From: Heterotrichella gracilis
Taxonomy: Eukaryota; Sar; Xanthophyceae; Tribonematales; Xanthonemataceae
DNA: 64,000 nucleotides
Assembly (NCBI GenBank): GCA_032358255.1
Contig: JAULBX010002556.1
Coordinates: forward strand, 1 to 64,000
Direction: 5' to 3'
In this document: piece after piece, positions 1 to 64,000 of the stretch
Position numbering within the stretch: position 1 is the stretch's first letter
Layout of the letters: every line of letters begins with the position of its first letter
The notes under the pieces: generated by a model
Databases searched by the model: none
The model's input: only the letters and a program-made list of their open reading frames with translations
Told to the model about the DNA's origin: nothing
Position numbers and translations under genes: made by a program

Positions 1-255
1 ACCCCCCCCCCACCAAGTGCGCAGCAGGAAACCAATGGTCCAAATACAACGATGATTATTATCATGCGTGTTTCCTTAGTACTACATGCAATGTCATATT
101 AAGTACTTCACCTAATCGCAGTAGCTTCTGCCGTGGCAAACCCTTGCTAAGCTTTGCATTGGTCGTGAACTTCCTTGTTAGGGTTTACAGTGGTCGAGAA
201 AAGCCCTTGCTAGAGTTACCAGTGCCGTTGTGACCCTAGGGCTGTGTGTCTGCAG

Positions 256-495
256 CACCTCCGCCCACCCCACCTCCATCACCACCACCAAACCCGCCAC
301 CACCAAAGCCCCCCACACCACCACCACCATCACCACCCTTACCGCCACCCAACCCCCCACCGCCATCACCCCCCCCGCCGCCGTCGCCAAGGCCCCCACC
401 ACCAACACCTCCACCACCACCACCATCGCCACCACCGCCGCCACCCACCCCACCACCATCGCCACCACCACCACCACCCGCGCCGCCTCAGGATG
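256..495 (+). other. First polyproline hinge exon of the matrix protein
   Basis: The frame with a CAG acceptor at 253-255 and a GTGAGG donor at 496 encodes about 80 residues of almost pure PPPPSPPPPPP type, ending PPQDG. Similar shorter hinges open later modules at 2939-2984, 5082-5181, 7777-7840, the 3' half of 10591-10734, and 13361-13520. Such runs are the classical glycosylated rod segments of pherophorin-like or hydroxyproline-rich algal wall proteins. The antisense Gly/Val-rich and Gly-rich frames are shadows of this composition. Confidence 0.8.
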
Positions 496-3400
496 GTGAG
501 GGTTCCCAGCCTGATAAACTCTAAACCGTAAACAGAAAGTTAATGGTTCCATTCTCAATATGCGCTGATCCCTTGCACCATTCCCCCGCATCCCATGACC
601 CGGCAAGCAAAGCCCATACCCTACTACTCCCCCATCGGCCCCCCCATTTTAACCCCGTATTTTCCCTCTTCATGCCCCATGTGCCACATTTGCAAAATTG
701 TCGCAGCCCCCAAGCTTGGCCCCCATTCCGAGGTGGACCAGAACCCCTCGCTCCTTGTTGATTGTGGCTGGAACCCTTGCCAAGGGTTTGCCTATAAACC
801 CTCCAAGGGTTCCCCTACACCCTCTCCCAGCCGGTTGTGCCTGGAACCCTGGTCAAAGCCCCGCATGAAACCCTCGTCAAGGGTTGTGCCTGGACCCTGT
901 TCCCCAGGGCTTGCTTGAAACCCTCGTCAAGGGTTTTGCATGGAACCCCCTCTCCAAGGGTATGGCGCACTCACCCCCTGTCCCCTTGCTCCCACCCGCA
1001 GTGTCATGGCGTCCCTTCTTCCCCACCCGCCAGGACGGGCTCAGGGATATGATTACTGGGCCCAGGCAGGAGTGCCCATCGGTAAGCCCTAAACCTTAAA
1101 CCCTAACCATAAACCCTAAAACCATAAACCCTAATACACAAGCCCCGCCAGGACGGGCTCCCGGATATGATTACTGGGCCCAGGCAGGAGTGCCCAACGG
1201 TAAGCCCTGCAACCCTAACTATAACCAAAAAACCTGAACCCTAAGCCCCTCCAGTCTGACTGCATGGAGGTGCCCTACACCCTATTCTAAACCCTAATCC
1301 CTAAACCCCAATGCTTGCTTCTGCCAGAAAGTGGTGGTCCGCCTGTCTGCGGTTGGAGACAACCGCAGATGGTTAGGGTCCAGAGTTTAGGGTTTAGATG
1401 TCTGCCTCCAAACCTCTGCCCCCTCTGTAGGTTTAGGGTCTAGGGTTAATGAGCGCCTCCACCCCTATATTTCGGGGTTTATGGTTTGATGTTCTTCACT
1501 GTAGGATTCATGGAAACCCCTTCGTGCAAATGGCACTGCCAGCCTGTGAGCGTTGGATGCTCTGCAGCCGTTTAGGGTTGAGGGCTCAGGGTTTAGGGTT
1601 TATGTACCTATATGCCTCCGCTCCACTGCAGGGTCTATTGTCTAGGGTTCACTAACGCCTCCACACCTTGCCCTCATGTAGGGAACCTGGGTGGCCTCTG
1701 TGCGTGTGTCCTCCGCAGCAACGGCCTTTGAAGCCAACTGCACCGATGGAACCTCGCTGCTCTACAAGCGCTCAGACACATACGCGTTTGGCGACCCTGC
1801 GGTGACGTCACCCGATGGCTTCACCCAGGCGGCGGTTTCATGGTCCTACACCGATTATGCCCCATCTCAATACACGCCAAACGTACGTGTGGAACCCTAC
1901 ACCCTGCACCCTACACCCTACACCCTACACCCTACACCCTACACCCTACACCCTGCACCCTGCACCTTGCCCTGCAAGCCAAGGGTTCAATAAGGGCTGC
2001 CTCAAACCTAAACCCTTACCCCTCACCGTGCACCCTTACTCCTACCTCTTAACCCCATCCACCAACCCTACAACCAACCTTCCAACCCCCACTCCACCCC
2101 CGTCACCACCTTTAACTCCACCCCCTAGCCCCCACCCCACCCCCATCCCCGCCCTAAACCCTGACCCCTAACCCCCACCCCACCCCCATCCCCCACCACA
2201 GATCATCCAGTTGTTGGGCCTGCCCAATGCCACCTTGCTGTCCTATCAGCCGACATTCAACTTCGACTGCGGCATCTACGGGCGCATCACTGGCTGGCAG
2301 TTCATATACAAAGGCTCCGCGATTGTGACCCAAGTCAGCTTCAAGTGCACACCGCTGGTGCGTGGCGGCTGGAGTGTAGGGTGTAGGGTCTAGGGTTTGT
2401 ACACACTGAAGGGTTTTATTGTGACGCAAGTCAGCTTCAAGTGCACACCGCTGGTGCGTGGCGGCTGGGGTGTGGGGTGTAGGATTTGTTCACGATGTAG
2501 GGTTGTAGGGGTTAGGGATCCCATCTATGGTTTGGGATTGGGTTTTGTAGGGCTTGGGGTCGAGGCATCCCATCAGCTGGCAGGTTGGCCAGCCACCAAG
2601 GGTTGTAGGGTGTGTGCAAAACCCTTTATTAGGGTGTTGCATTCCTGTCTCATTTTGCCAGCTGGCAGGTCCTATCAGCAGGTTGGCCACATGCGCCAGA
2701 AATGCACCCCTAGGTGGCTGGCCTGTCTAGGGTTCATGTTCCAGGTTGCAGGGTTTCACACATCTGTGGAGCGGGGGTAGGGTTGGGACCAAAACCCCAC
2801 ATTGACACGCAAACAGCTCCGCATGAGTGCTCACTTACCCCTTTGCCAAAAGCTCTGCACCCACCCTAATGAAGGGTTTTACACGCGCCCTACAAATCGT
2901 CTTTTGCACGGACCCTAACCAAGGGTTTTGGTGTGCAGAACTACAACCAGCCGCCCTCGCCCCCGCCCTCACCCCCACAAGCAGGTGCGGAGCCCCAACC
3001 CCCAAATCCCAAACCCTAAACCCTAGCCTGGCCCTGGCCCTGGGACCTGGGTGTGGCCCGATGGCAGCAAACCCTACAGCCCTCATCCTGAAACCTAGCT
3101 CCGACCCTACCAGGGGCTTGGTATTGCCAACGGCGCCAAATGGCGAATGTGTCCCCCAGTGCCGTGCCCTTTGATCACCTTGCATTGGTTTGGCCAGTGG
3201 TATCGCACCAGCCGATTTGGATGGCCGTGGTATGGTCAGTAGCAAAGTGGCAATCGGCCGAACCAGCCTCTTACATACCAGCATACCCATGTGAATGCGT
3301 CTGTCCCGGCATTGCTTCCACCGGAGTAAAAGGCCTGTCACCTTCTTGGACAAATTCCAGCATGTTGCAAATGTTGCCCCTGAAAACCCTGTTGTGGTCC

Positions 3401-6400
3401 CTGCCCAAGCGAACGCTAATGCTTGCCTCCAAAACCCTGCAGAGGGTTTCCTGCCTTGGCTCCCATCCGATCGATCCAGCTATGGCTACACAGTCAAGCC
3501 AGCACAGCTATGCCCAGCGGTGAGTACCCTGAAACCCTTAACCCTGATACCTGGAACCCTTGACACCCTGAAACCTAAACCCGGTCACAGGTATCAATGA
3601 CATCAACATATGGACCCTGAGGCCCTGAATCCTGAACCCTGTCACAGGTACCGTAACGTCATCACATCCCATAGGGACCCTCAACCATGCATGTACGGCA
3701 AACACCCACCTCTGCCAGATCTCCATCCCTCAGTACCCCAGGTGCCAAGCGGCTCCTGAGCTGCTGCAAGTGCGCATAGCCAGGGTTTAGGGTTACCTTG
3801 AACCCTAAACCCTCAACATAAAGCCAGCCAGGCCTTGCCACTCAAGACCTACACTAAAACCCACCACCACAGCCTGGTCACCCCACATCCTAAATGTGTC
3901 CGCTTTTGGGCTCCTGGCTGGTGTGCGTGAAAACCTACACCGAGGCTTTCCACAATCTGAATTTTTTTCTACTGCAGGGCTCCTGGCTGGTGTACGTGCA
4001 AGCCTATGCAGATGGGTATCAGCTGTACCGTATGTTAGGCAACTGCAGCGACAACACCCAGATCTTCTACTCCATCGACGCATACATGATATTCCCCGAT
4101 GACGCCTCCAAGATACTCACTGCTGGCTCGCCCGACGGGTTCACGATCGGCAAGGGGAGGTACAGGGAAACGGATGGCTACCCAACGTACACTCCCCAAC
4201 CGGTGGGTGCTGGGGGTGGGGGGTGGTGGAGGATGGGGGGGGTCCTTGGGGCGGAGACGGGGGATGTGTTTATTAGGATCTAGGATGTAGGGTTTAGGGT
4301 TACATGTTGTGGGGTCCTTGGGGCTGAGATGCGCTGTGTGTTCTTTAGGGCTTAGGGTTACATGTGGTGGGGCTGAGCCTGGCCCGGGACACCCAAGGCT
4401 TTGAAGGGCAATTGTGTAGGGCATTAGGGCTTTAGGGTTTCTGCCCCCCCTTCCCCCAGACACGCCCCCCTCCCCGCCCTTTCCCCCGCAGATCACTCAG
4501 GTCATAGCGGTGCGGCCCGACTCCCAGCAACCCTGGAACACCCAGCCATTTGAGGGGCGGTGCGGGTCCCTGGGACGCATCACGGGGTGGCAGTTCCAGA
4601 CCAAGGAGGCACAGAACGGTGGCCAGACCTCAGCCGCACCCATGGCCGTGCGCTTCCGCTGCACCCCAGTGGTAAGGCAGCGTGGGGCGTGGGCTAGGGT
4701 TTAGGGTTTCTGCCAGCGAGCCGACAGCTGTGAGCTTCCGATGCAACCCTGTGGTATGGTGATTGTTTAGGGTTTAAGGTTTCGCTGGTGCGCCGCTGTC
4801 GGTGCGCCGCACATGCACTAGCGGAAATTGAAGGTAGGGTAGGGGGCACATTTAGGGTTTGGGTTGAAGTTCAAGGTTCATGGTTTTGCACGAGGCTCTG
4901 GCCGCGCTGGTTGGCTGTGTGCTTCACATGTGCCCCAGCAGTGAGGGTGCGTAGGGATCGATTGTGCTGTAGGGTTTAGGGTCTAGGGTTACCGGTTTAT
5001 AGTGCATGAGATTGAGAGCAGCAGAGTGGTGTCATGATTTTGGAACTCACGCATGACCCCCCCTTTCCCCCCCCCTTGCAGTATTACACCTACCCTTCAC
5101 CGCCGCCCAGCCCCCCGCCCAAGCCCATCCCCCCGCCACCACCACCACCCTCGCCACCACCGCCATCCCCTCCCGCTGTCGGTGCGTGTGGTGGTGCCCC
5201 CTTGCTGGGGGTGTGTGGGGTAACTGCCGCAGGCTACGCACACACCCCACCCACAGCCACAGCCACAGCCACACCCCGCACCCCACACACCACCCACAAC
5301 ACTCACACCACACCACAAAAGCACACGCAAGAAGCCCAACACAATCACAGTCATCACATCACAACACACACACACACACACAACCATAGCCACCACAACC
5401 ATAGCCATGGATGCCGAGAAGAGAGCACAACTTGCCACCTTTGCAGGCCTTCTCGCCCCCTGTTCCCTACCCTGCGTTCCTATTGACCATATTATCTCAA
5501 CCCCCTGTTCCTCCCCCTTATGCCCGCTGTCGGCTACACCCCTTGGGCCCCAAAGTTCATGCAACATCAACAGGGAAACACAGCTGCGGGAAATCAACAA
5601 CATTTTGCTAGCAGCCATTCTCTCACCCCTTGTCCCCTCCCCTACTCCTGCAATGGGCTACACCGACTGGACCCCCAAAACCCCATGCCAAATCAACAGA
5701 AATACATTTTTGTAACACCTATTTTCTCAACCCCCTGTTTCCTCCCCTGTGCTCCTGCAGTTGGCTACACCGACTGGACCCCCAAGTTCATGGTGTATGG
5801 TCAGGAGGCCATGCCCATTGTCACCCAAGATGCGGCAGAGTGCCCCGCAGGGGAGTATATTAGTGAACTGGGGATGACCAACAGCAAGTACTGGATGTTC
5901 AACTACGTGCGTGATCCTCAACCCTAAACTGCTGTGGTAGGGTGTTAAGGGTTTGGGGGAAGGGTATTACCGAGCTGGGGCTTGACCATCAGCAAGTACT
6001 GGGTGTTCGATTGCGTGAGTGATCCTCAACCCTAAGCTGCTGTGGTAGGGTGTTTAGGGTTTTGGGGAAAGGGTAATTGGAGCTGGGGCTGAACACAAAT
6101 GCACGACCCCAACACTGCGGGTCAAGGTATTTAGGGCAATGCTTGACTGCAGAATGGGAGTGCCCTTGGGGTGTAGGGGCACTGCCATTACACCCCAGAT
6201 CCTCTAAAACAAACTATACCCTCATCGGCCTTTACGCCCGCTCACATGACCCCAAACCCTAAACACTGAACCCTAAACCCTGGCCCCCGCCTGCAGAGCT
6301 ATCCTGGCCCCGTCACCGGGTTTAAGCCCGCTCACATGACCCCAAACCCTAAACCCTAAACACTCACCCCCGCCTGCAGAGTTACCCTGGCCCCATCACC

Positions 6401-9400
6401 GGCCTTTAAGCCCGCTCACATGACCCTAAACCCTAAACCCTAAACACTCACCCCCGCCCGCAGAGCTATCCTGGCCCCCTCACCGGCCTCCAGGCCCGAT
6501 GCACCAATGGCCAGCAGTTTGTGAGCGGCGCTTTCTCGCAGTTGTACAACACCTCGCTGCCAAAGGTGGTGGCGGGCCCTGGCGGCATCACCCAACTGAC
6601 ACTGCAGTATATTCTGGAGGACCAAAAGGCTGGGGTGTATGGCTATGAGCAGGTGCGGTGTAGGGCTATGTTTAGGGTTTCAGGGTTCCAGGGTTGTTGG
6701 GGCATTTGGCTATGAGCAGGTGCGTCTGTTGATCTAGGGTGTAGGGTGAAGCTGGGGTTTTCTTACAGGGTCGCCTTTTTGCAGCCCCGCCCCCCCCAAG
6801 ATCTCGGAACATTCCTGGGGAAAGGTTGCCCAACCCCCATCCCACCCCCACCCCCCTCTGCAGTGGTCCAGCCGCGCCAGTGGCTATCCAGCGACCCCAC
6901 CAACCCTAAAAAAACCCAAATCACCCGAATTTCTGGAAAACCCTGGAAAAACAAAAAGACCCTGAAAACTCGCCTGAAAGTGCGCACCCCCCTCATGCAG
7001 TCGTCCTTCATCAACAGCATCAACGCAATACCCCGGCTGTGGTATGGCGGCTGGGACCCAGTCACAGGACCCTACGGGGACCCACTGGGGGGCACACAGC
7101 TCACCACAGTGACCCTGGCCTGCCCCCCCAACACCCGCATGGGGGGATTCCAGGTGCAGACCCAGTCCTCAGTGACTGCTAGTGGTAGGGTGCTGCTGCT
7201 GACTGGTGGAAGGCGCCTGGTCAGCCTGCGCCTGCAGTGCACACCCCAGGTAGGGTTTTGAGGAGGGCGGTGGGCGGTAGGTGATGGGGTGTGGTAGGGT
7301 TTGGGGTGGGTTTTAGGTGCAGACCCAGTCCTCGGTGACTGCTGGTGGTAGGGTGCTGCTGGGGACCGGTGCACTGCACCTGGTCAGCCTGCGCCTGCAG
7401 TGCACACCCCAGGTAAGGGTTTTGTGTAGGGTGTCTGGTAGGGTTTCGGGGAGGGTAATTGTTGGGGTATGTGGTCAGCATGCGCCCGCAGTGCACACCC
7501 CCAGGTAGGGTTGTGGTAGGACATGGGTGTGGTGGTTGCTAGGGTGTGGTAGGGTTTGGGGTGGGTGTCAGATTGACTCGTGGAATGTGGTGTCAGAATG
7601 CTGCGTAGTGTTTGGTGACCGTTTTGAGTGACGTTACACAGCGCTGCGCCCTCCCCTTGTTATTCGCCCCCTTGATCTCGCACCCATGCACCGCGCAACC
7701 CACATATGGTGCCAGGCGGTGTGACGTGCACCCATTGTAACCCCCGCCCACTCCCGCACCACCCCCACTCCCGCAGCCCACCGGCATCAGCCCCCCTCCT
7801 CCACCATCACCGCCGCCAGCGCCACCGGAGCTGACAGAACGTACGCACCCTAAACCCTAAACCCTGAACCCTAAACTATAAACCCTACACCCTACAGCCA
7901 TCACCGCCACTGCCTCCGGAGCAGACAGAACGTACGCACTCTACCCCAAAACCCTAAACCCTTATTCTGTGGACAAACTTACCAAGTGCTGAATCCCTTA
8001 GAATATGTCGTGCAGTTGGCAAGCTACTGACTTGGAATGTCCCTCTTTGCCTACAACCCTCTCAAGCGCCCTCCCAGGAGACTGTTTGACCTCATCACCT
8101 GCACGACAAGAGTGTGTGTCAGCTAAGAACTTTCAACCCTATGCACCATCGTGATGTGTGTATGGTGGCATCCTAAATATGACATACAATGTATTGCGGT
8201 GTGCGGGTATCCATCAATGCCCTGAGGGTGATGAGGCGCCTTGGTTCCCACACACTAGCTTACCTCACCCTACACCCTCCTGGCCCTAAACCCTAAACCC
8301 TAGACCTTAAAACCTCCCCTTGCCCACGCAGCTGGCTAAACCCAGTGGCTCCCTAAGCCTTAAACACAACTGTAAACCCTACTCTCCAATCCCTAGATCT
8401 GATACACCTCCCCTTTCCCACGCAGCTGGCTGGACGCAGTGGATCCCAGAGTCCCTATACCCTAACCCCAAACCCTGATTTGTGAACCCTGAACCCCCAC
8501 ACGCAGCTGGCTGGACGCAGTGGATCCCAGAGTCCCGCACAGAGTCAGGCCTCGCAAGCACCTTCCCCGCACAGGCAAGTCTGGTGGTGGTGTGCTGGGT
8601 TCAGGGTACTGATGCTACCCTGAGCATGGTACTGTTGGTACCCTCAGCAATATGCTGATGCTTTCATGAGCTCCTAAGGCAATTTGCCTGTTGCATGTAC
8701 TCCATGGTAGCCAACCCTGGGGCCCTTCCACTGCCACACGCGAGCAATGGCATTTTCCGTTTGCCTCCCCCTCCCCTGCCCCTCCCCCCTGCACGCATAC
8801 AGCACCACATGCAGTAAACCCTAAACGCAGCAAACCCTGACCCCCTATTTGCCCACCCCCCCTGCCCCAGACCTGCCCCAACTCCTGGACTCCCACTGCA
8901 CCACAAGCAGTAAACCCCAAACCCTAAGTGCCACAAACCCTAATCTCCTTCCCTCCCCCCCCCCTGCCCCAGACCTGCCCCAACGGTGGCGCACTCACAT
9001 GCAGTAAACCCTAACACTACGTGCCTCAAACCCTAATCCCGATACCTCCCTCACCCCCCTGCCCCAGACCTGCCCCAATGGCGGTGCACTCACATCCATT
9101 GGAGTGAGGTACAACCCCGCAAACGCATGGGCAGACGACCCCGCGCACCAAATGGAGGGCCTGCTCGGAAACTGCAGGTAACCCGAAACCCTAAACCCTA
9201 AAACCCTGAACCAAGTGGAGTGTTTGCTAGGAAAATGCAGCCGCATCTACCCTAAACCCTCCTTCCCTCATGTTTTGCCCCCTGACACTTCCAGTGCCTG
9301 ATATTGGCAATAAGCGCATGTCTCTCCATATGCCACCGCCAAATCCTCCACCACCCCCCAACACCAACCCCCACACACCCCGGCTCCCACCATACATGCA

Positions 9401-12400
9401 CACACACCAACCCCCCCTCCCCACCCACCCCCACCCCCACCCCCACTCTGCAGCGATGGCACTGCACTGTCCACCTTTATACCCACCTTTGGCTCGCTCA
9501 GTGCATACGTGGCGCTGCCTGGCAAGGGGGCTGACGGATACCTGCGCACAAATTGGCAGTTCACCACGCAGGTGAGGGTGTGAGGGTTTTAAGGGTTTTA
9601 AGGGCTTTAGGGTTTTAGGGTCGAGGAGAACGTTTTCTGTAGGTGCAAAAGGTTGGCGCTCTACCACGCAGGTTGCTGTGGAGTGTGGGGTGTTGGACAA
9701 CCCTGGAAACCCTAATACTCTGACGAGGTTTGCAGGGCGCCAGTTGGCAGTTTTCCAGGCTGGAGAATGCAGGGCTTTGGGGTGTAGGGTGCAGAGTTTT
9801 AAGGGTTAGGTTGCAAGGTTTAATGACCAGTGTGGCGCTGCCTGTTGGAGTGTACCAGGCCAAAGGGTTTCAGGGTGCCCAAGGGTTTCAGGGTTTCCAA
9901 GGTGTGGGATGAAGGGTTTTGAGGAGACGGCTTCCAGCTGGCAGTCAACCATTGATGAGCACGCAGGCAGGAAAAGTGTATTAGGTGATCAGGACGTAGG
10001 GTATTAGGGCTTCTGTGAAAATGCCCTCTCCCCTCTCCTTCCACCCACCCCCCTCGCCCCCACCCGCAGCGCAACTACGTGGACCCCACCTTCCCGGTAG
10101 TGGGCCTGGGCCTGGTGGGGATCCTCAACCCCCGGCTCTATCCCATCGATCCCAACGCCATCTATCCCGGGGACAAGTACGTGCTGGCCAACATCCAGTG
10201 CGGGGGATACCTGGCAGGTGAGTGCTAGGGTGTAGGGTTCAGGTTTTAGGGTTTAGGGTTTTAGGGTTTTGCACCTGACTTCCAGGGCGGGGGCTACCTG
10301 GCAGGTGAGTGCTAGGGTTTAAGGTTTACGGTAGGGTTTTGGCGCCGGGCATCCAGTGCGGGGGATACCTGGCAGGTAAGGAATCCTGGCATCATGGCTT
10401 GAACACGGCTGCAGGCAAGAACCGTCACATGGTCATGATTACCCATGCAATGCATGCTAGTGAGCACACGTGCAATGACTGTTCATCGGATCAAACGTTA
10501 TCCCCCGGGGTTGCAGTCAGCGACATGTCCCCCGGGATGCAGTACTGGCCACTCAATATTTCTGACACCCTTGAGACCATGAAAACGCAGGGTTCCAGAT
10601 CCAGATCTACAACTGGCCGGTGCCCACAGTGGCAGCCATCAAGCTGCTGTGCTGGCCAAGTGGGTTCAACTTCCCGCCACCCATGCCGGCCAAGCCGCCC
10701 TCGCCGCCCCTGCCGCCCTCCCCACCCTCCTCATGTAAGTAGATGACTGGACAAACTAAAACCCTGAACCCTAAGCATCCAGGTTTACAGTTGGCTGGTG
10801 TCGGCCATCAAGAAGCTGCTGCTGGACCAAACCCTAAATCCTAATGGGGTTCATGTTCCCGCCACCCACGCCGGCCCAGCTACCTCCCCGCTTCTGCGGC
10901 CCTCCCCACCCCCTCCTTGTAGGAGGCGATTGGAGGGCCCTAAACCCTAAACCCTAAACGTCCAGATCTGCAATCCACATCCCCTGTCCCGTGCAGCCTG
11001 CTCACCCACCACTCCGCCCCTCTCCCTCCCCCTTCCCCTTTTCCCCCCTCGTTCCTCCCCGTTTCCCCCCTCACATGCCCCTTTCCCCCCCCGCAGCCGG
11101 CTACACCCGCTGGTCCCCCAACATCCCCCAACCGGCTGGAAGCATAGTGGACGAGGTTCGGTGCCCCGTGGGTCTCTACATCGTCGCCTTCAGGGTATAC
11201 TTCGATGCAGCGGGGCAGGCGTCCAATGCAGGGGCGTCCTATGCGGTACCCTATAGGGCGATCGTGGGCGTGGAGGCGGTGTGCAACTACGGTGCGTGCG
11301 GGAACCCTTGACTTTGAACCCTGAACCCCGTGCAGTTGTCGTTGTTCATCTCCAAACCCAGCGCTCATCCGTAACCTAGCAAACCCTAGTTCTCCCTTAC
11401 CTTAACTCCTAATCTCCCCCCTCTTGCAGGTGCCAAGCTCAAATCCATGGTGTTTATCCCCCTTGACAACTACGTTAGTCCCTGGGACACACCACATCCC
11501 AATGTGGGCGTGAACACCCCTAGGTCTCTCGACTCTGAACCTTTATCCCTCCCCCCCCTTGCAGATGCCAAGCTCAAGTCCATGGTGTTTATTCCCCCCA
11601 ACAACTACGTCAGTCCCTGGGACACATCTGATCCCAATGTGGGGGTGGGAAACCTCGCCGGCAGCACAGTCAACTACGGAACCCCCAAACCCTACAGGTG
11701 AACGCATATGTCACGTTCATGTGTGGGATGCTGTAACTTCAGCTTCATCTCTTAGCATGGCGGGTGAAAGTGGAAATGGCCACCTGGCAAGGCTGCTGGG
11801 GATCGAAGCAAACCCAACTTTGTTGATTACATTTGATTTTTAAACTTTAGCTTGCTGATCAGCTGCCACTAATGATTGACTTGGAGTACGGTGTTATAGA
11901 AAACCCCAGGTGTGCTAATGGGGGCAATCATTTTTCCATGTCACACTTCCCTCGTGACAGCCTCATAACCCCCCTAGAACACAGGCGCATTGGCCAAAAT
12001 CCCCAAAAAGCGCCGATCCTGACATTAAATCCCCGAGTCTCACACCTAGCTAGTCCCCAACTGTACAAAAGACGTCTTCACACTGCTGCGGCCCACATCC
12101 TGTTCTCCCCCTGTACCTGGTGGGCTGTGAGTAAGTTTTGCACCTTGTGCTGTCGTAGGGCAATCGGGGGCTATTACGCAATCGGAACCTACACCCCGGC
12201 CGGGAGCCCACCGGTAAGAACCTACCCTAGCACTTACCCTAGCACCTACCCTAGCACTAACCCTAGCCCTTAACCTATCAGCGCCTCTCATTGGCATCTG
12301 ACCATGGGCATTGGCTTATTGACTGTGGATGTTGGCAGCTTTTGGAGGGGGCGCCTCGTTAGCTGCTCCCACTTTCGCCATCACATCTTTATTACTCATA

Positions 12401-15400: not shown

Positions 15401-18400
15401 TACATGATGATGTGCTTCATCAGTCAACCATGAACGTTGACCTAACCCCAATGTTTTGCGCACGCAGACGGCCAGTGCGCGCCCTGCACCGGCAACGCAG
15501 GCAGTGGAGCCACCCGCGCCTGCCACCCCTCGGTGCCCATCTGCCGAGTGCGCCTGGCCGACCAAGGGGAGAACGTGATCACCACGTGTGTCAAACCGCA
15601 GTGCGACCCTAGCGGGGTGTGCAACCTCAGCCCCGACTGCAACGACCCCACGCAGCGTGAGTAGAAACCCTAAACCCTGCAACCTAAACCCTAACGCCGC
15701 AACCTCAGCCCAGACTGCAACGACCCCACGCAGTGTGCGCAACAACAGGAGTCAACCTGAACCCTGAACCCTGAACCCTAAACCCTTAAGTTTAGCAATC
15801 CCTGTTCCTTTCGAGCACAAGCCTCACCTGCAGCCCAGATCGCTGCGGTGTCATCCACTGCGACTGAGGTGTGAGCAAAACCTTTTAGCTCTGCTGGCAA
15901 AGTGCTTTGCCGACAGGTGTCAAGATCGCCTGCACAGCTGGCGATCCTGCTCCTTGTTTCCTCAAGGCCTGACTTCTCACACCCCCTTGAATGCAGTGGG
16001 CAAGGCCGGCTGCCCCGCTGATTGGTTCACCGGCCAGCCCGTGGGGGGCTGCGGGGGGTCATTCGGAGAGGTTGGCAAAACCAACCTGTGCCCCTCATAC
16101 CTACCCACATGCCTCAACGGGCCAGGGGGCCAGTGCATGCGGTGCACCTCCAACTATGCGGTTGGGGGAGGGTACGGGGGGTGTCCCGAGACCGCGCCAA
16201 TATGCATGCAGGTGAGAAATAAAATGACTCTTGGTTGTGATGGTGTTTTTTAATTATCAGATTTAATATTTACTAAGTATGGTATTATAGCTTTGGGGGT
16301 GTATGGGCCAATGATTTAGAATGTACAAGCAAATAGATAGGTGAATAATGGCTTTGGCGGGGGGAGCTGGTGCAGGGGATGTCCCGAGATTGCGCCGGTG
16401 TGCATGCGGGTGTGCGCCCAACTTCACTTTGTTTGTGACCTGGGGCGACAAGGGTAATATGATACCAATAGTCATATTTGTTATATTTGTTACCTTTTAA
16501 GGCCCTTGGTGGATGTGGCCTTGGGGTGCTTTCCTCGGTATGTGTTGGTGCATTCGCACACCCGGGGCAGCTGCGGGCTACGGCAGTAATATACACTGGG
16601 TTAAGAATCAATCAATACTTGATTAATTATTTGAAGAAAAAAGCAAGACTTTTAGCTAATTCATTACTTAACCGTTTTTATGCAGACCCCCACCAGCGGC
16701 GGCCTGTGCCTGCCCTGCGACGCCAGCTACGGCATGAAGGGCAACGCGCCATGCAACAACCCAAACCGACCGGTGTGCACCGCCATTGGCAAGTGCGCGG
16801 CATGCACTGGCCACACCTCAGAGAACGGGTTTGCACCCTGCCCTCCCCAGCAGCCGGTGTGCAATGCAGGTGGGTGCAGGGTTCAGGTTGTAGGGTTTAG
16901 GGTTTAGACCCCCAGCAAGTCCGTGTGCAACAAAGGTGATAGACGCCAAGCATTGCTGCGCAGGGTTCAGCCCGGGGTTTGCTTTAACCCTAGGGTTCAG
17001 CCTGGAAGAGGTCGCGACTCACTTGCCTTGTATGCACATCCAGAAGGACTAGAATGGGACTAAATTTGGACTAAATAGATTACATTGGGACTGTTTTGAG
17101 TCGCCCTGGCATATCTCTGAGAAAGTGCAGATGGGTAAAACGGGAAAGGAACGGAAGCAGAGGGGGTAGAACCAAGCAGCAAAAAGCAAGCACAAACAGG
17201 ACCAAACGGTGCAGGGGTAAGCTGGCATATCTGTCACAACATCCCCTCCCTGTGTTCATTATGCACTCCCCCCTGGAAACAATGGCCGCCAGTGCGTCTC
17301 ATTCAATGCGCCTGTCCGTGTATGCGTAAGCAGGTAAATGACCTCGTTTCATTCCACTCCCCTTGACCTCGTTCCTTTTTGTTCTCCCTGCAGGCACCGG
17401 CACCTGCGGGCCCTGCAGCCGCAACAACCAGTTCATGTATTTGGTATTTCCACCTATTTTATTTGTGAATCTTACCCCTTCCTGCAGGCACCGGCACCTG
17501 CGGGCCCTGCAGCCGCAACAACCAGTTCCTGGACGAAGAGTTTAACTCTGCAACCGACTGCGGCTTCAAATACCCCGTGTGCTCAGGTGGGGATAGGGTG
17601 TAGAGTACAGCGTAATAATGATATTACTAATATTAATATTATCAACATTAATGATAATAATAACGCTGCTTGCCCACGTGTCAAGGGCCTGCTGCACCGG
17701 CCGCCCTCACTCACCTTTTTTAATCATTTGTAATCATTTGTCATCAGTAGTGATGACCCGCCCGGGTAATGATGCGTTACATGTATGCCAATTAGGATCA
17801 CATTACCTGTGCATGTGCCTCCAGGGCGCCGGCAGCCTGGTCCACAAGTGCACCCATCAGTAGTGATGTAGTGTAATCGGTACTGTAATCAGCTGTGATG
17901 ACCTGGGTACTGATGATCACACTGCTTGCGCAGGTGGCAAGTGCCTCCAGTGCACCAGCAACTTCATCAACGACTGGGACATCCAGTCTCCCAGGGATGG
18001 AGTGCAGTGCCCCTGCTACGCGCCCATCTGCCAACGTGAGCCACTAACCCTAAACCCTAACCCAATACCCTAAACCCTAATCCACTACCCCTTGCTGCCC
18101 TTGCAACGCGCGCAGCTGCCAACGTGAGCCACAAACCCTAAACCCTAAACAAACACCTCTTGCTGCCATCCATTTTCGTCAAAGCGGGTCAGCAAACCCT
18201 ACATTTTCAAACCCTCTACCCGTACGCATGTAAACCCTAAACCCGTATGCCTGAAACCCTAAACAGGTATGCTGTGCGCCCATCTACCAGTGAGAGCCAC
18301 TCCCCTGGCTGAAAAGCACATCGCGCCCGCAGTGAGCGATCAACCCCTAAACCTCAAACCCTAAACCCTAAGCCCAGCTCTGGCTGAAAGCACATCGTAC

Positions 18401-42163: not shown

Positions 42164-42191
42164 GCGGTTGTGCTTTTTAAAGCACAACCGC
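42164..42191. repeat. 28-bp near-perfect palindrome
   Basis: Arms GCGGTTGTGCTTT (42164-42176) and AAAGCACAACCGC (42179-42191) flank only two bases. Just upstream is GGCATGTTAACATGTCG (palindromic core), and just downstream an 8-bp hairpin, CAGGCGAA (42226-42233) with TTCGCCTG (42241-42248). Confidence 0.75.
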
Positions 42192-44064: not shown

Positions 44065-47000
44065 TTAGGATTTGGCCCTACCTGGCCCTGCCATTGTGTG
44101 TATGTAAGCCTCCCTCAGCTGCTCCCAGCGCTGGTCCAGGGTACCCGTGAGGCCGATGGACATGCGCACCAGGCCGGGGTGGATGCCTGCGCAGGGGAAA
44201 AGGAAAAACTTAACAAATAAAAAAATTGGATAAATACATTAAATATGCAAGCGGCGGACCCACAGCGGACATTTTTGACATAATATGTCAATCTACAACT
44301 GTTAGATGCGTACCAAGTCGGGGTGGATGCCTGCACAAGCGGCACCCAGTTCTGTTGTCAGTAATTCGCCAAGAAACACAAAATGGAAGTAAATTAATGC
44401 GGCCGGCGGCGTTGAATTAGGTTCAATATCCACATGCAAATCATTATATCCCAAAAAATGGTCCGATTACACCTGCCGCGATCTGCTCCTCCCGGCTCAT
44501 CTCGCTCGACGTGCTGGCCCCACTTGCCGACATCAGCGTCTCAAAGTAGCCCAGGCTCACCGCCATCAGACCAAACTGGGCCTGGTTCTGCAGCCGCTCC
44601 ATGAGGCATGCCGCTGCGCTGGCTGTGGGCAGGGTGAGTGTGAGGATGCCGCTGGCGCCATAGCCAGGGTTGGCTAGGCGGGTGACCAGGGCATGCTGCG
44701 GGTGGCTGGCCAGGCCTGGGTAGCGCACCACTGCGCCCATCTGCAAGAAAGAAAGGTGGGAGGTGGTGGGTGGGGTGAGAAAGCGAGGTTCCAGGGTTCA
44801 GGGTTTAGAGTTCAATGGTAGGTAGGGTGGAGGGGTACGCTGGCTGTGGGCAGGGTGAGTGTGAGGATGCCACTCGCCGGGGTGGTGAGACGGGTGGGTG
44901 GCGTGGAGTGATCAGTTGTCAGGGTCGAGGTAGATATTGTGGAGGGTATACCGGCCGTGCACAAGCCCTTATGCGGAGGGACAGGTATGGCACCCTATCC
45001 CCTACACACAAGCAAAGCCCTGCACAAATCAGGCTCCACCACTCACCTGCTCCAGCCTCTCCGCCAGCGCCTGCGCGCGCTGTGAGTGCTCCCTCATGCG
45101 CAGGGGCAGGTGCGGCACCCGTATCCCCAGCTCCGCCGCCACCTTAGGGTCCATGGTTGGCCCCAGCAGCATGAAGGGGCCCAGGCGCAGGTCCATGAGG
45201 CGGGAAACAAAGGAGTGGGAGCCACACACAGCGCCTGGGGAGGGGGATTAGGGTTTGGGGTTTGTGAAGAAGGTTTTTGGGGTAGTCCAGGCGCAGGTCC
45301 GTGAGGGGCGACACAAAGGAGTGGGAGCCACACACAGCGCCTGGGGAGGGGGATTAGGGTTTAGGGTTTTTGTGAATGTGGTTTTAGGGTTCTGGGGTTT
45401 GTGGTTGCGCGGGTGCAGGTCCATGAGGCGGGACACGAAGGAGTGGGAGCCGCAGACAGCGCTTGGGGAGAGCAAGGGTTTAGGGTTTAGGGTTTCTGTG
45501 CTTGTGGTCTTAGGGTTTGGGGTTTGGGGTAGTGCAGGCGCATGTCCATATGAGGCGGTATAGATAAGGGGGGGTATGAGCCACACATAGCACCTGGGGA
45601 AGGGGGAAAGGGTTCCATATTTCAGGGTTCAGAAGCCGAGGGTTTAATACAGGTTTTGCTTGTCCATCGCAAGTGCAGCATGTGCAGGTGAGTGGGGATT
45701 CTCTTTCTGTTTTCCCTCCCCCACCTGCGATGATATCAGACGCCCCGCTTATGAACTTAGTCAGGCTGTGCACCACCACATCAGCACCCCACTTGGCCGG
45801 GGTGATGACACATGGCGCGAATGTGTTGTCCACCACCAGCAGGATGCCACGTGAGTGCGCCAGGTCAGCAAGGTGGGGCAGGTCAGCCACCACCAGGGTG
45901 GGGTTGGAGATGGACTCAGTGAAGAGCACCTGGGGGGGGAATCATACATAAAAAACGGCAGGATGATTGGATTAAATGATAATGATGTACAGCGGGCATA
46001 TGGATGGGTTGAAATGAACTTGGTACAGAGCACCTGAGTGAAATCATTACAAATATCGGTACTGAAATACGATGTGAGATCCATGTTGACACATGACCAT
46101 GGGTTGGAGATGAACCCTGAAGAGCACATGTAGAGCACATACCTTGGTTTTTTCGGTGATTGCCTCCGCCACCGCCTGGTGGTTGCTGATGTCCACAAAG
46201 GTGGTGTGCATGCCGCACTTTGCAGGCAGAAAGTCCTTGAGCAGCGCATGCGTGCCGCCATACACTGCGTTGGATGACACGATGTGGTCACCCGAGTTGC
46301 AGATGTTGAGCAGGGCGGAGGAGATGGCTGCCAGGCCTGCAAAATGCCCATGCGAAGTCAAACTTCCTCTTTTTCCTCCTTGCAAATTGTTCACTTGATG
46401 CCTCAAGCCACAGCACACTGCAGTCTTCAATCATTGTTAATGGCCACCTTGAACCAAGTGCCTCAAATTACCTAATGTTCGTTGAAGTAGGGTGACTTGG
46501 GTGTCTCCTCATACCCACACTTTAAATGCGAGTAGCAGGTGGTGGGCATGGGCTGCACCCTCCACAGCATGGCCGCATGGATACTTATTTTACCCTTAAC
46601 CATCCAATGCAAGTGCCAGATTTGTGAGTGATGCATGGGTGCCTCAGTGTCCTCAACCCCCAACAGCTGGGCGCATGAGCATGCAGCCTCACTAAAACCC
46701 TAAATTCTAACCCTTTTGAACCCTAAACCCTAAAGCCCACCTGAGCTGCAGGTGTATGCTGCCTCTGTGCCCTCCAGCACTGCCAGCTGCCTGCCCAGGC
46801 ACCTGACTGTGGGGTTGAAGGAGCGGCCATACAGGTAGCAGCTGCCTGGAACACAGGGGGTGCTATGTCAGGAATAGGTTGACACATCAGGTGGAATTGA
46901 CATGAGACACTTCCTAGAGGCTGGATTTGCAGACGATGCTGACCCATGCCTGTTATTCCTGAAAGCACTGGTGGTTTCTAATCTCAGCCCACAACCCTCG

Positions 47001-48680: not shown

Positions 48681-48689
48681 CCTTCCATG

Positions 48690-48880
48690 CCATACACATC
48701 CTCCGCCGCCGCCCAGGTTCCTGTCCAGTGCATTGATGACCACCAGCTCACCTGACCGCAGCTCGCCACCCTCACTCCCCCATGCCCCCTCATGAGCTCG
48801 CAGCTGGCAAAGAAAACCGCCATCATTCTCCCCCTTGCAGCCCACCCACAGAAAAGCCGCCAGCTTCAGCACACAGCTGC
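48690..48880 (-). pseudogene. Decayed tandem copy of the cyclin-box exon
   Basis: Directly downstream of the cyclin-like stop, the minus strand again reads CVLKLAAFLWVGCKGEN and, after diverged sequence, GELVVINALDRNL. This parallels CVLRLDMAACLWIACKAES and RELVVINALGWNL in the gene. Spacing is retained but the middle (the IFADCELMSIAGG region) is replaced by Gly/Glu-rich sequence. Confidence 0.75.
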
Positions 48881-48888
48881 GTTGGGTT

Positions 48889-52300: not shown

Positions 52301-52334
52301 CCACTTCCCTCCCCTGCAATGCGCATACCCACTC

Positions 52335-52670
52335 CCTGCTCACGGGGCTGCCTCCAGCGTTGCCAGACCCTGCTCAATATATGAAATGCCCTGAGCAGGT
52401 GCTCGCCTTGCAGCCCTTCTTGTGATAGAAGTTGCTCACCACGCCGCCTACCGCATAGCCATTGTCTGTTGTGGCTGGGAGCTGTCCAGCGATGAAATGT
52501 CAAATAGGGCTACCATCATCTGGTCACGGAGCAGCCTCCAGAATCTGCCAAGGAACCGTCCAGTGCAATATCACAGCATCACCAGTAACTGGCGCTGGGC
52601 TTAAAAAGTAGTTGTACTTGCTTATCTGGTCACGGCGCCGCCTCCAGTATTGCCAAGATCTGCTCCATGT
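52335..52670 (-). repeat. Three copies of the terminal-exon end of the pseudokinase gene
   Basis: The unit TCACGG.GC.GCCTCCAG, ..TTGCCA and GA.C.TGCTC is the real 3' end of the coding exon at 52630-52670. It recurs at about 52524-52570 and 52340-52380, both beyond the stop codon. The copies are therefore not confined to introns. Confidence 0.8.
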
Positions 52671-59168: not shown

Positions 59169-62100
59169 TTACGATGCGCGTGCCGTTGCAGCGGCGATGA
59201 GGGGTGCAAGCTGCTCCAGCCTGCGCCGAGGGAGGGTGGGTGTCATTGCTCCTGGTGCGGGCTGGTGCAGGCTAAACCCTAAACCCTAAACTGACTGGAT
59301 TTCCTCCAGCACAAGGCCACGGCATGTGGCCATGTGGTGCCAAACAGCAACCTCTGGCTGGGAGATGCAAGCAGGCCATTTGGGGATGCAAACAGGTGAT
59401 TCTGGACGCAGGCATGTTTTGTCCCTACTGCCATCAGCGACGGTAGGCAAGGATGACGCCTTGGATGGTATGTCTAAAAACTAGGCATTTCATGATGCAG
59501 ACAGGCAATATTACAGGCAGTTCACCAGTGGGTCAACCAAGAATGAACCCAGCCCATTGACTTGCGCAAACCCTAAACCCCAAAACCCTAAACAGGCATA
59601 GTTCACTCACTTGACGCTCTCTGAGCTCACATGCTGCTGCGTGAAGGAGTTGGCGCCGCTGCAAGGGGGGGGGGGGTACGAGTTGGGACAGGCATAATAC
59701 ATACAGGAATTTGAGGGGAGACGTAACAGGGAAAACAGGCATGCAAGGCAGTCACTGGTTTGGTCGTTTGAGAGGGCAAGCAGGATGATCTTGGGAACTG
59801 CAAAACTGTAACAGCCAACATGCAGCATACTGAGTAATTTGGTGTTCTGCATGACAGTATTACAATGATGGACTGCAAGGCGCACGCCAATGTACTGGCA
59901 TACCAACTGCAGCAGTAGACATGCTTCACTGCCTAGACTGCTGGATCGCATGCCACCACTCCGATGCACACGCTTACTTCCTTGGGAAGCAGAGTTTCAG
60001 ATTTAGGGTGCACGTTTAGGGTTTAGGGTATAACACAAGCACAAGCTTACTTCTTTGGGAAGCAAAGGATTGGCCCCACGCCGCCCTCAACCACCTGCCA
60101 CCCAGCATCCGCTACCTTGGACTGGATCTGCGCAGCCAAGAAACAAAAATTATATACATCGCCATAAATTAAACAATACATAACAAAATTGCGCAGATCC
60201 AAGTTGGTGAATATTTCAAATTCATATTTTAAATCTGCGCAAAGCAACAATGTCGCCAAATAAACATCAGGGACTTGATTACAGTGTAAGGCATTCTCTA
60301 CACCCTATTCCCAACCTCCTTGCCCCAGGGACACATCAACAGGAATGGGCATTGCATGTAACGGATGTGTTACTAAAAAAGGCATTCCCTACACCCTACA
60401 CCCATTAATCCTTGCATTGCGTGCACCCTACATTCCTTGCAACCTAACCCACATACCAGCTTGTCAGCGTTGCCCCATCCGCCACGCTCATTGTGCTGGA
60501 CACCCCAAACCCTACACCCTACATCCCAAAATCCTACAGCACGCACCAGCTGGTCCAGTGTGGCCCCATCCAGCCGCACGCTCTGCGCAAACGTTTGCCT
60601 GGACACCTTCTGGTATGTGTTCTGGAGCGCACTGATGATGTACTCACGCACGCCGTCGTAGAAACCGGGCACTGCAGCAGCAACGCGGGATTTTGAATTA
60701 AATATTGGCAAATTCAAGGTACTGCAGCAGCACCGCGGGAGTCGAGAAACTGTGTGCTTAATATATTGACCATATATAAAACCATTCTGCGTGGCTTGTT
60801 CAACCCTGGCTGCCAATTTGGCTGCGCTGCTTGATGCGTGCAATCAGAAACAGGGACCAACAGGGAACGGCATGGCGGGGTGTGGGGCGTACCATCGTTC
60901 AGCACGTCGCGCGCGTATCCTGTGTGCTCCCAGAATGCAGGGAAGCGCCCCTCCTCCAGGTGCTTAGCCAGGCCAATGAGGTTGGCCAGGGGGAGCGCGC
61001 GGTCCTCCTGGGGAGGGAATCAGGAACGTTGGTGGTCGAGCGGTGTGGGATGTATGTTGATGGCATGTAATTTAGTGTAATAGAAACTGTGCACCCATTG
61101 TGCATGCATGGTGGGCGGGATATGAGCTTATGGCCGTGGTATCAAGCTGGGTGGGATCTGCTTGTGGAATGGGTTTCAGGGCCATGTATGTGGGGTTGTA
61201 TGGAGCATGCGTGTGGAATGGCCAGGGTGTGCTCTAGGAGACGTTCGGTCTTTCGGTTGTTGGCCACACCCACATGCCCACCCGCCCCTGTCCATGCCAT
61301 ACCATGCCAACCCATAGTCCATGTCCACACAATTTCACGTGAAATCCGCCGCTGCCACTGCTAGCATCCACCCCACACACGAAAAATCACAGCTGTTGCT
61401 GCTGAGGCCATTCACGCGCCATCCCCCAGAGATCCAATGCTGTCTCTGCCCCCGCCAAGTGCGCTCCGCCGCTGTGTAGGGTTTAGGGTTTGCTGGCGCT
61501 GTCCATGCCATAGCAGTAACTTGGCTGTGCTCCAACCATCGGAGGTTGCGCCAGCTGCTATCCAACCCACCGGATTCCTCGGGTCCGTAGTATGCAGGAC
61601 AGCCCAAGCGCGTCCCCACGCCTCCCCTATAAAGCACAACCCGCGCCACGCCAGCCGCCCTGAAACCCCAAACCCTGAACCCTACGCTGCGCCCTGCTCA
61701 CCTTTATCGACTCTGGAATGAGGTGCAGGCGCAGGGACAGGTCTCTCTCCTCGCCAGCTGTGTGCCTAAGCCCAAACCCTAAACCCTAAACCCCTGCGCA
61801 CCTTTATCGACTCTGGTATGAGGTGCAGGCACAGCGACAGATCCCTCTCCGGCAGCTGCATCATTGCCTTGACAAGCACTTGGGACACCACCGCCACGTT
61901 GGTGGTGCGTGGGTAGAAGCTGTAGTGCCGCAGGAGGGCCAGGTTGGCATCGAGGTTGTATGTCCGGGTTTGGACCTAGAGGAAGGGTGGGGGTCAGGGG
62001 TTTGATGCGGGTGTGGAGTTGGAGGACAGGGGTTTGGTGTATTGTGGAGCTTACAGGACATAAAGACACATTGATGGCTCAGAAAAACCATAGGCAACAC

Positions 62101-62509: not shown

Positions 62510-63797
62510 GGCTGCAGAAACGCTTCAGAAATACGCCTGTGGTGCCTTTAAGGGGGAGAGATCAGTCGATTGGATGTGTTCACCGAATGGCGATAGTGGC
62601 ATGCAAGGGATGAAACGGGCTCTACAAACCAGATGGGCTGTTGCAAGCTTGGTAGATTAACCGACAGTTTAGCTTTGCAAAGTGGTAACTTTGCACAGGT
62701 GCTCGCTTGTTCCTGTCCTTGCTAAGGTGGGTCGCCGCCAACATTTTGGAAGGCGGGAATATGCTACTGCATTGGTGACGGGGAGGGATATCCAAATGGC
62801 AGGCCTGGAAGAAAGAAAGAAAGAAAGAAAGGGAACGCACAGAGGCGTAGTTAGGGGGCCACTGGCTCGCACCAGGGCACCACACCAGCCAGAACTGCTG
62901 GTCAAGGTTAGGCCCTAAGGCCTAATTAGCCAATGCCCGCAGGCATGGCATGCAAAAGGGTTTGGCGTTTAGTGTACACAGCATAGGAACCTTGAATAGC
63001 AAGGAGTTGCAACGCGGGAATAAGGCTGGCAATCATGCGGGGGGCTAAGCCTATAGCAGTCAGGCCTGGAAAATGACAGGTATTTCCTGTCAAATAAAAA
63101 GCCACATAATACCACATGTTTCCCCCAGAACTTACCCGAGATGGCGAGATATTGTTACATGTGTTGTCAACCAAAGGTTGAGCCACAGCTACAGGGTGAA
63201 GACTGTGCACAACTGAGGTGTGTCTCCCGCGGCCTCAATGCAGCTGTGCTGCACTCTGGACTTGTCAAGGTATTATGTCTTTCTGTACACTGCATTGGTG
63301 GTCACCGTAGAAAAAAAGAAGTAGACAAAGCCCAGGTAGGAATCCTGGCACCATAGGCGGTAAAAGTGTAACTAGGACCCACCATTGCCTGACACTTGGA
63401 AAAACTTGCGGACGCTAAAAGGAAACCGGCAAAACCCTTGACAAGGGTACTTCACGTTGACGAGGGCCTCACCACCCTTTCCTCCAAGAAGACACCATCT
63501 TCTCGTCAAACCCCACTCCCCCTCTCACCCTCGTATACGCCTCTCAACAACCGTCCCAAGGCATTGGCCCCCGCACAAGTTATTTGGCACTGAAGCCCCC
63601 ACACCGCATCAGACCCGCGCGGTGCTGCACAGCCTGGCGCCTGGCTGAATACCCCACCCCCCTTCCACACCCCAGTACCAGCCAAAATAGCATCCTGCAG
63701 GATTGGCCCTGAACCACCAGCCGATGGTGCAATGTCAGGCAGACCAGAAACCCCCCACCCACCCCACCCCCCATCCCCCACCCCCCGCCCCCCACTG
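62510..63797. other. Intergenic region upstream of eIF3k
   Basis: Contains a (GAAA)n microsatellite at about 62808-62832 and one AACCCTTGACAAGGGT-type inverted heptamer unit near 63432. A C-rich tract lies at 63730-63795. No gene or RNA recognised. Confidence 0.55.
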
Positions 63798-64000
63798 CTA
63801 GCACGACGCGTCCACTGGGTTGTCCCTGAACCGCCCGTGGTGCGACATGAGGTAGTCAACCTTCTCGGTGGTGTTGTACTTCTTGGCGTCTTCCGGGAAT
63901 CTGCAGCACCAGAAGGTGGGCACCATGTCCATGCGCGCGTCAAAGCGCCGGGCCATGGAGGCGCACGTGAACTGGCGCAGCGCCTGCAGCAAGGGGCATG
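63798..64000 (-). CDS. C-terminal exon of an unrecognised gene (partial, runs out of the window)
   Basis: The minus-strand frame is open from the window edge to a TAG at 63798-63800 and reads LLQALRQFTCASMARRFDAR, MDMVPTFWCCRFPEDAKKYN and VDYLMSHHGRFRDNPVDASC. The composition (Trp, Cys, Met, charged residues) looks like real protein, but I do not recognise the family. Whether 64000 is inside the exon or near its acceptor cannot be seen. Confidence 0.55.
   Translation of the reverse strand, partial: CPLLQALRQFTCASMARRFDARMDMVPTFWCCRFPEDAKKYNTTEKVDYLMSHHGRFRDNPVDASC

Follow-up and report, generated by a model that had tools for sequence, protein, structure and literature searches.

The stretch of DNA analysed here, called the window in the following, comprises bases 1–64000 (64,000 nucleotides) of contig 28 of the xanthophyte Heterotrichella gracilis, whose genome amounts to 68,512,230 bases in 903 contigs. 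Its genes carry arrays in which the last or first part of an exon, together with the splice site, is found again in the adjoining intron, frequently with telomere-type heptamers (TTTAGGG or CCCTAAA) between the copies. A sample of 20 stretches of 10 kb each from the contigs C2 and C46 (200 kb) was analysed together with the window, giving a total of 264 kb.

A two-strand gene model was trained on all 264 kb, with 16 exon pieces picked by eye as seeds. It returned 382 exons and 357 introns, with the consensus CAG/GTRRG at donors and TGCAG/G at acceptors. The median length is 140 bp for exons, about that of one nucleosome, and 289 bp for introns. All exon borders in this text are predictions of this model on the sequence it was trained on, and neighbouring genes become merged by it; the recovery of the seeds at 0.91–1.0 is expected, as these were training data. 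Many of the predicted proteins read coherently, and there are proline-rich ones among them. A methionine gamma-lyase-like protein of 316 residues can be aligned with solved enzymes over its length, and the best PDB matches of a Rubisco small subunit are chains such as 1gk8 of Chlamydomonas reinhardtii. Taken by themselves, the proline-rich proteins, the splice consensus and this small subunit would suggest a green alga. Pfam scans of 30 single open reading frames assigned a family to only 7 because the exons are short, and neither Rfam (at the gathering threshold) nor tRNA scans gave a match in the window.

Tandem copies of exon edges

Over the 264 kb, 35 of 224 donors and 34 of 233 acceptors have a direct copy of their 50-bp exon edge within the intron next to it (score at least 18). 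At the same score neither reverse complements nor foreign introns yielded a single match for donors or acceptors. Exon middles matched the intron in 4 cases on the donor and 6 on the acceptor side, and the far edge of the same exon in 3 and 0 cases, so that the enrichment of edges over centres, proposed as a check in an earlier note made from the letters of the window alone, is indeed found. Altogether, 76 of the 307 introns of at least 80 bp hold an exon-edge copy. An ungapped scan revealed 253 local direct pairs at a spacing of 30–400, and none at the control spacing of 2030–2400; this, and the use of 14 permuted heptamers as a control for the telomere motif, speaks against chance or low complexity as the source. 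Clusters of these ungapped pairs, obtained with telomeric and simple runs masked, are the arrays referred to below.

The earlier note had described copies at more than 30 exon borders, always in direct orientation, typically 60–120 bp apart, usually more diverged with distance from the exon and commonly with heptamers in between, and this description stands. There are 34 such splice borders in 28 of the 96 window introns of at least 80 bp (local score at least 18), and its ten clear cases all overlap arrays from an independent diagonal scan. Comparison of the window with itself by BLAST (spacing up to 300 bp, at least 40 bits) gave 30 direct and 2 inverted pairs, both of the latter at a spacing of at most 50 bp. 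The median spacing of array pairs is 95.5 bp, and at 13 borders with several copies the nearest copy is the most similar one in 8 and the farthest in 2, with 3 ties. Exact heptamers occur in 50 of 82 gaps, compared to a mean of 17.3 and a maximum of 29 in 1000 draws of equally long random intron segments. What has to be widened is the view of the pattern as a property of the window: it is present there but not confined to it, as 22 of 159 donors and 20 of 165 acceptors have a copy in the 200-kb sample alone.

The anatomy of the copied segments is as follows. The aligned part has a median of 50.5 bp. In exon-bearing pairs the duplicated part comprises a median of 37 bp of exon at donors (n = 43) and 44 bp at acceptors (n = 50), plus 10 and 12.5 bp of intron, respectively. 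The gap between the copies has a median of 41 bp at donors and 55.5 bp at acceptors and is 5 bp or shorter in only 9 of 100 exon-bearing pairs, thus abutting copies are not the rule. Ten of the 50 acceptor-type segments extend beyond the far end of the predicted exon, and the assignment of these ten to a border is unsure. As a separate observation, the locus L001 contains at 1680–1838 a near-perfect 53-bp tandem repeat whose last copy enters a predicted exon, apparently a very recent, gapless duplication of the border type.

The earlier note had further argued that repeats of a simple intronic kind should show no relation to exon borders. The border focus holds, but the argument is incomplete: an excess of edges over centres proves little by itself because no tandem duplication can carry exonic DNA into an intron and leave out the border. 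More weight attaches to the telomere-type filler and to the surplus of border pairs over those lying within introns or between genes. Among 134 arrays, 93 involve a border, 24 are intron-only, 13 intergenic (located in sequence without a predicted gene) and 4 exon-only. Random placement of the full unit gives 33.2, 42.3, 42.6 and 15.8 for these classes, and random placement of the aligned part 15.8, 51.1, 43.4 and 23.7. Measured against chance, border arrays hence exceed intron-only ones by a factor of 4.9 when the unit null is used; for the aligned-part null the factor is 12 to 15, young pairs and all pairs considered. In a strict recount, predicted exons shorter than 60 bp were treated as intron and at least 15 exonic bases were required. 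It placed 77 arrays as exon–intron, 5 as exon–intergenic, 30 as intron–intron, 13 as intergenic, 7 as exon–exon and 2 as intron–intergenic. Here 82 arrays join an exon to intron or intergenic sequence against a null mean of 31.3 (null means of the other classes: intron–intron 42.6, intergenic 41.4, exon–exon 17.6, intron–intergenic 1.1), and the excess is still 3.4- to 3.7-fold.

These counts bear on the simplest alternative, namely that small tandem duplications arise at random throughout the genome and that edges only look special as exons are constrained, introns short and exon-internal duplications purged. With introns of about 290 bp and units of about 95 bp many duplications should touch a border, as the unit-length null indicates (33 border against 42 intron-only), and exon-only arrays are depleted. 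Yet we consider this account improbable. Border arrays outnumber intron-only ones far beyond that ratio, also among the 32 young arrays with an identity of at least 0.90 (22 border, 7 intron-only, 2 intergenic, 1 exon-only), where unequal decay hardly matters. The excess persists in the strictest recount, intergenic arrays reach 13 instead of about 43, and a telomere-type filler is not predicted at all. Slower decay of exon-bearing pairs was rejected as the cause of the excess since the young class has the same excess. Biased detection was likewise rejected, as simulated detection was nearly class-blind (0.90–0.998; at 15% divergence 0.956 for border and 0.909 for intron pairs). A local copy exists for 18% of 50-bp windows at borders, 11% in introns, 7.4% in exons and 3.0% in intergenic sequence, with inverted and distant controls at or below 0.36% in all four classes.

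The positions of individual features are given in Table 1. Where the earlier note spoke of at least eight unrelated genes, the 35 border arrays of the window are located in five of its seven predicted gene blocks, the predictor merging neighbouring genes. Eighteen of them fall into a long predicted protein at 1–18998 (+ strand) with proline-rich stretches and repeated modules, which may represent several merged genes. In some predicted proteins a peptide from an exon edge is repeated in tandem over a short stretch, which looks as though exons had been called in decayed copies; the gene model seems at times to make exons out of copies, and annotators should be warned that decayed edge copies can be mistaken in this way. 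Pair density is also raised near predicted stop codons (9–17% of 50-bp windows within about 100 bp, window plus sample, small numbers), and the rise near start codons is less clear, again with small numbers.

Table 1. Exon-edge arrays and related features in the window; C637 is the collinear segment compared further below.
Feature	Position	Strand	Description
Donor-type array	2322..2507	+	Downstream copy of about 36 bp of exon end and about 30 bp of intron; spacing 96, 95% identity
Donor-type array	5870..6090	+	Unit of 108 bp: exon end, GTGCGT, intron with CCCTAAA; second unit missing in C637 (109-bp gap)
Acceptor-type array	6219..6498	+	Units of about 84 bp: CCCTAAA tract, CAG, exon start; predicted intron end 6463; C637 gap 143 bp
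Array of exon end with GTAGGG donor	7141..7571	+	Main spacing 163, plus a partial copy
Acceptor-type array	8312..8536	+	37 bp (CACGCAG and 30 bp of exon), 100% identity, 44-bp gap of decayed CCCTAAA
Acceptor-type array	8788..9098	+	Units of about 95 bp; C637 lacks 197 bp (about two units)
Acceptor-type pair	11424..11647	+	Spacing 135, 88% identity over 89 bp
Acceptor-type pair	17384..17531	+	54 bp, 96% identity, spacing 94
Acceptor-type pair	18626..18769	+	35 bp, 97% identity, 74-bp degenerate CCCTAAA gap
Two arrays at exon borders	21155..21657	-	21155–21386, spacing 82; 21450–21657, spacing 76
Array beside acceptor	23211..23399	-	Intron-side copies of about 56 bp with (CCCTAAA)n; almost no exon in the copy
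Array in ABC1-kinase gene	28953..29192	-	Exon end (..QKLPQ) and donor copied downstream, one clear and one shorter, decayed copy; AACCCTAATCC after the donors
Donor-type pair	30427..30528	-	34 bp, 97% identity, 34-bp TTTAGGG-rich gap
Exon-edge pair	30710..30864	-	Spacing 119
DegP-like gene, intron	37231..37453	+	Last ~19 bp resembles the upstream exon end; sole clear intron-gain-like signature
Exon-interior copy without border	44617..44877	-	Segment 84–124 bp from the acceptor; 40 bp, 95% identical, 221 bp upstream in the intron
Array in methionine gamma-lyase-like gene	45179..45614	-	CAG and first ~55 bp of exon GAVCGSHSF..; three more copies in the intron, CCCTAAA between
Weak pair at 3' flank	52336..52668	-	Spacing 290, 77% identity
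Donor-type pair	61692..61850	-	59 bp, 90% identity, spacing 100

Telomere-type heptamers in gaps and introns

AAACCCT is the commonest heptamer class in border gaps (6.1%, compared to 1.3% in other intron and 0.23% in intergenic sequence), and most of the next-ranked classes look like decayed forms of it. It ranks first in the remaining intron sequence too and is absent from the top classes of intergenic DNA. Exact telomere-type heptamers cover 16.1% of the gaps, or 13.1% if the sample is taken by itself. Their share is 3.0% in introns outside the arrays, 0.85% in intergenic sequence and 0.36% in exons; tracts are thus scarce between genes. Over introns as a whole the coverage is 0.039 against a mean of 0.006 for the 14 permuted heptamers, which stay near 0.5%. 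Such heptamers are found in 62 of the 104 direct pairs with a gap of at least 15 bp (border 50/85, intron-only 8/10, intergenic 4/8, exon-only 0/1).

Within introns of all genes the coverage peaks 10–40 bp inside. At donors this peak is made up of both orientations; at acceptors it extends 10–60 bp into the intron and is mainly C-rich. A tract 8–48 bp inside the border is present at 27 of 42 donors with a copy against 49 of 252 without, and at 13 of 43 acceptors with a copy against 29 of 251 without. Where a copy is present, acceptors show tracts in the C-rich sense orientation alone (C 0.120, G 0.000) and donors show both orientations (C 0.139, G 0.086). A C-rich tract before an acceptor would offer pyrimidines as well as a branch-point-like CTAAAC. 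Hence splicing would tolerate only C-rich tracts there, and the pattern fits an orientation-blind insertion that is filtered by splicing. Counted outward from the exon, 32 tracts are G-rich and 17 C-rich. Orientation was also tried as a pointer to telomerase priming and gave no clear answer, as splicing may force it at acceptors.

The association was also seen at 12 loci outside the training set with the model unchanged: of the perfect tracts there, the three whose centre lies no more than 40 bp from a predicted exon all have direct copies on their flanks, and none of the 11 other distinct tracts does.

Three further observations concern the distribution of the heptamers. In 208 introns without a detected copy G-rich TTTAGGG is still enriched 10–40 bp after donors (0.044–0.051 of bases) and CCCTAAA far less; this enrichment could reflect G-runs with a role in splicing, or what is left of old events. 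Upstream of 30 predicted starts the G-rich coverage within 40 bp is 0.010–0.057, with only 300 bases per bin. Finally, the density of heptamers is about 3.4 times higher in the window (122 in 64 kb) than in the 200-kb sample (112), mostly owing to its first half (1–32000). A subtelomeric position of the window is possible since it begins at a contig end.

Decay of the copies and differences between paralogues

The copies decay neutrally or nearly so. Their mismatch rates at the three codon positions are 0.150, 0.132 and 0.224, a pattern that a neutral copy should show when set against a constrained exon, and tests of codon position, indel frame and splice dinucleotides gave no sign of a function. 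This lends no support to a suggestion of the earlier note, a selected supply of alternative splice sites. Under selection the copies would be retained because they provide alternative exon ends, or splice sites that serve as a reserve or compete with the original ones. In favour of this, most copies reaching the border include the splice site, with the dinucleotide retained in 21 of 30 donor and the AG in 19 of 28 acceptor copies, and the synonymous share among codons with a single difference is 0.43, where 0.25 is expected. But the retention equals what identity alone predicts (22.3 and 20.7), 116 of 132 indels have a length not divisible by three and break the frame, and we read the synonymous excess as one of the size expected of a constrained exon opposite a neutral copy. 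Selection of the copies therefore appears very improbable, and functional decoys were dismissed on the same retention and indel results.

Paralogues lead to the same view. In two transporter-like paralogues, L015 and L016, seven introns could be paired, three of which have copies in L016; two of these three are free of copies in L015, which again argues against selection, and the third, whose pairing is weak and unclear, carries an array in L015 too. A longer comparison is offered by the segment C637 784–7419 (L031–L036), a paralogue or divergent haplotype that is collinear with 4100–11200 of the window. Its introns are partly alignable, which makes it useful for dating the repeats; over well-aligned stretches the identity is 0.81 in introns and 0.93 in exons. 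At several arrays C637 lacks a stretch of window sequence (106 bp at 5639, 109 bp at 5968, 143 bp at 6208 and 197 bp at 8883), and it has 19 insertions of at least 12 bp of its own. Whole units, then, differ between paralogues. At 5968 loss of the unit in C637 is as likely as a gain in the window, because the two copies there (83% identical) differ more, judged by eye, than the paralogues do. Some arrays are common to both, among them 8312–8536, whose gap in C637 looks nearer to pure (CCCTAAA)n. A constraint on the telomere-type tracts themselves was considered and rejected: the identity between the paralogues is 0.859 at the exact-heptamer positions of the window, 0.809 in other intron and 0.929 in exon sequence, and we estimate that about 0.90 would follow from the choice of exact-heptamer positions alone.

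The arrays might also be traces of intron birth, in which an exon is duplicated together with an AG/GT proto-splice site. One intron of the DegP-like gene (Table 1) is a clear case. Nevertheless, the corresponding register, the upstream exon end matching the intron end, reaches a score of at least 12 in 1 and at least 10 in 3 of 274 introns, and the partner register, the intron start matching the downstream exon start, in none of the 274. Moreover, copies mostly share the border type of the original, therefore the intron must already have existed. As a general account intron birth failed in the register test, and we regard it as scarcely credible.

Proposed break repair at exon edges and its relation to known systems

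The reading that we prefer, tentatively and falling somewhat short of an even chance, is that recurrent break repair at exon edges leaves behind telomere repeats and a duplicated edge, so that introns grow from their ends. Breaks or paired nicks would recur at exon edges, and their repair would duplicate a segment of about 50 bp across the edge (about 40 bp of exon and about 12 bp of intron), with TTTAGGG/CCCTAAA repeats remaining between the copies in the order edge, telomere tract, edge. The copy with the uninterrupted exon would stay in use, and the other one would fall into the intron with a spare splice site and decay neutrally. Direct copies would then allow the later gain or loss of whole units consisting of tract, splice site and exon edge, and introns would grow inward from both ends. 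Telomerase or another source may supply the repeats, and long overhangs may be filled in, for instance by CST and polymerase alpha-primase.

The observed anatomy, the telomere-rich gaps, the exon-edge excess, the near-neutral decay and the whole-unit differences between paralogues are the basis of this reading. The break-repair process suggested in the earlier note, in which the border is copied and telomere-like DNA added, is consistent with the gaps, the neutral-looking copies and the paralogue differences; the breaks, the repeat source, the fill-in, the order of events and whatever directs them to exon edges are what we infer. Breaks could be biased towards exons, with survival of only those events that spare the splice site, nicking could be linked to transcription, or the footprint could be set by something fixed relative to the border. 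That tracts are scarce between genes suggests some connection with transcription or gene structure. A further-reaching version is possible, though we doubt it: a nick or break footprint fixed by the splice site (about 40 bp of exon, about 12 bp of intron) would be healed by telomere repeats and overhang fill-in, so that introns accrete at both ends and telomere DNA becomes one of their main raw materials, in genes and hardly between them.

Several results weigh against repair at the edge as the origin of tract and copy. A direct sign of breaks was not found. Sixteen of the 93 donor and acceptor segments end before the border, which a simple target duplication does not explain, and the exon-interior copy in Table 1 includes no border. 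Microhomology to the telomere unit at the breakpoint in the exon hardly exceeds the control (at least 5 bases in 6 of 49; 0.12 against 0.04). The three contig ends examined are not capped and give no confirmation that TTTAGGG is the telomere; in L040 a (TTTAGGG)n run is found some 140–180 bp from a contig end, and the same repeat is described as ancestral in green algae in the part of a study considered here (PMC8226300). Furthermore, where the intron copy has a tract on either side, the two share their orientation in 13 of 13 cases at donors and in 6 of 6 at acceptors, the latter showing a single orientation anyway; in those cases the tract was therefore duplicated with the unit or present first. 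In 51 of 82 border pairs the filler is more like an outer flank than the control is, and in 25 of these the likeness is strong; for the 22 young border pairs the numbers are 15 and 7. For part of the set this likeness indicates a tandem duplication that included the tract, and shared telomere-like sequence alone could give a weak likeness.

The last two results lend themselves to a different order of events. Telomere-like tracts 10–40 bp inside splice sites, present there for another cause, would act as fragile sites, and replication or repair would then tandemly duplicate a unit of about 100 bp that extends from the tract over the splice site as far as the exon. Full-unit pairs of this kind exist, such as 5870–6090 with 113 bp aligned at a spacing of 108, and in L016 (6693–6984) the intron sequence beyond the donor has been copied as well; the G-rich peak after copy-free donors is also in line with it. 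On the other hand, C-rich coverage in introns without copies drops to 0.015–0.018 at donors (10–40 bp) and about 0.01 at acceptors, therefore C-rich border tracts go largely with the copies. Only a minority of the young pairs show the strong likeness of filler and flank, and tracts on the near side only outnumber those on the far side only by 17 to 7, the direction expected if tracts come with the copy. The agreement in orientation and the filler–flank likeness favour a tract-first duplication for part of the set; as the account of the arrays in general we hold it to be unlikely.

These arrays bear on how introns lengthen and on the reasons for telomere repeats within the genes of some genomes. 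As young copies lie beside their source, the events are numerous, can be dated against the conserved exon and can be compared between paralogues. If exon edges truly are hot spots of breakage and repair, a new tie between gene structure and DNA damage would exist, and if telomerase supplies the filler, telomerase or telomere fragments would be routinely active inside genes.

Each ingredient has a counterpart elsewhere. Short interstitial telomeric sequences of mammals are likewise chromosome-internal telomere repeats, thought to be inserted during double-strand break repair, with older tracts more mismatched, and in some cases they are flanked by a duplicated target (6 of 130 rodent and 4 of 25 primate loci; Table 1 of that study, PMC2246262, Genome Biol 2007). 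Mostly, though, those insertions came with a deletion or no change, and the part of the study considered here notes no focus on exon borders. Here, unlike in mammals, the tracts lie near exon edges between direct copies of about 50 bp, and about one border in 6–7 has an edge copy. CST-guided fill-in by polymerase alpha-primase creates small tandem duplications, mostly below 100 bp, at breaks with complementary overhangs (PMC8355091, Nat Commun 2021). These are direct and tens of bp long as in the arrays, and CST is also a telomere complex; as far as this account extends, it notes neither telomere repeats between the copies nor a preference for exon borders. Plant telo boxes share the presence of telomere motifs within genes, and telomerase has been proposed to extend free 3' ends there at transcription-linked nicks (PMC3022908, BMC Plant Biol 2010). 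Unlike the tracts described here, they are short motifs concentrated at 5' ends and rarer in Arabidopsis introns, with more in the first two, and duplicated exon edges are not noted in the portion of that work drawn on. The creation of introns by tandem duplication, finally, also involves exon sequence and splice signals, but according to the descriptions considered it uses exon interiors, whereas here existing borders are copied into existing introns. Among the open-licence papers that literature searches brought up, none pairs telomere repeats with duplicated exon edges in its title or at the start of its abstract. The ingredients are thus known, and it is the focus on exon borders and the scale that appear to be new.

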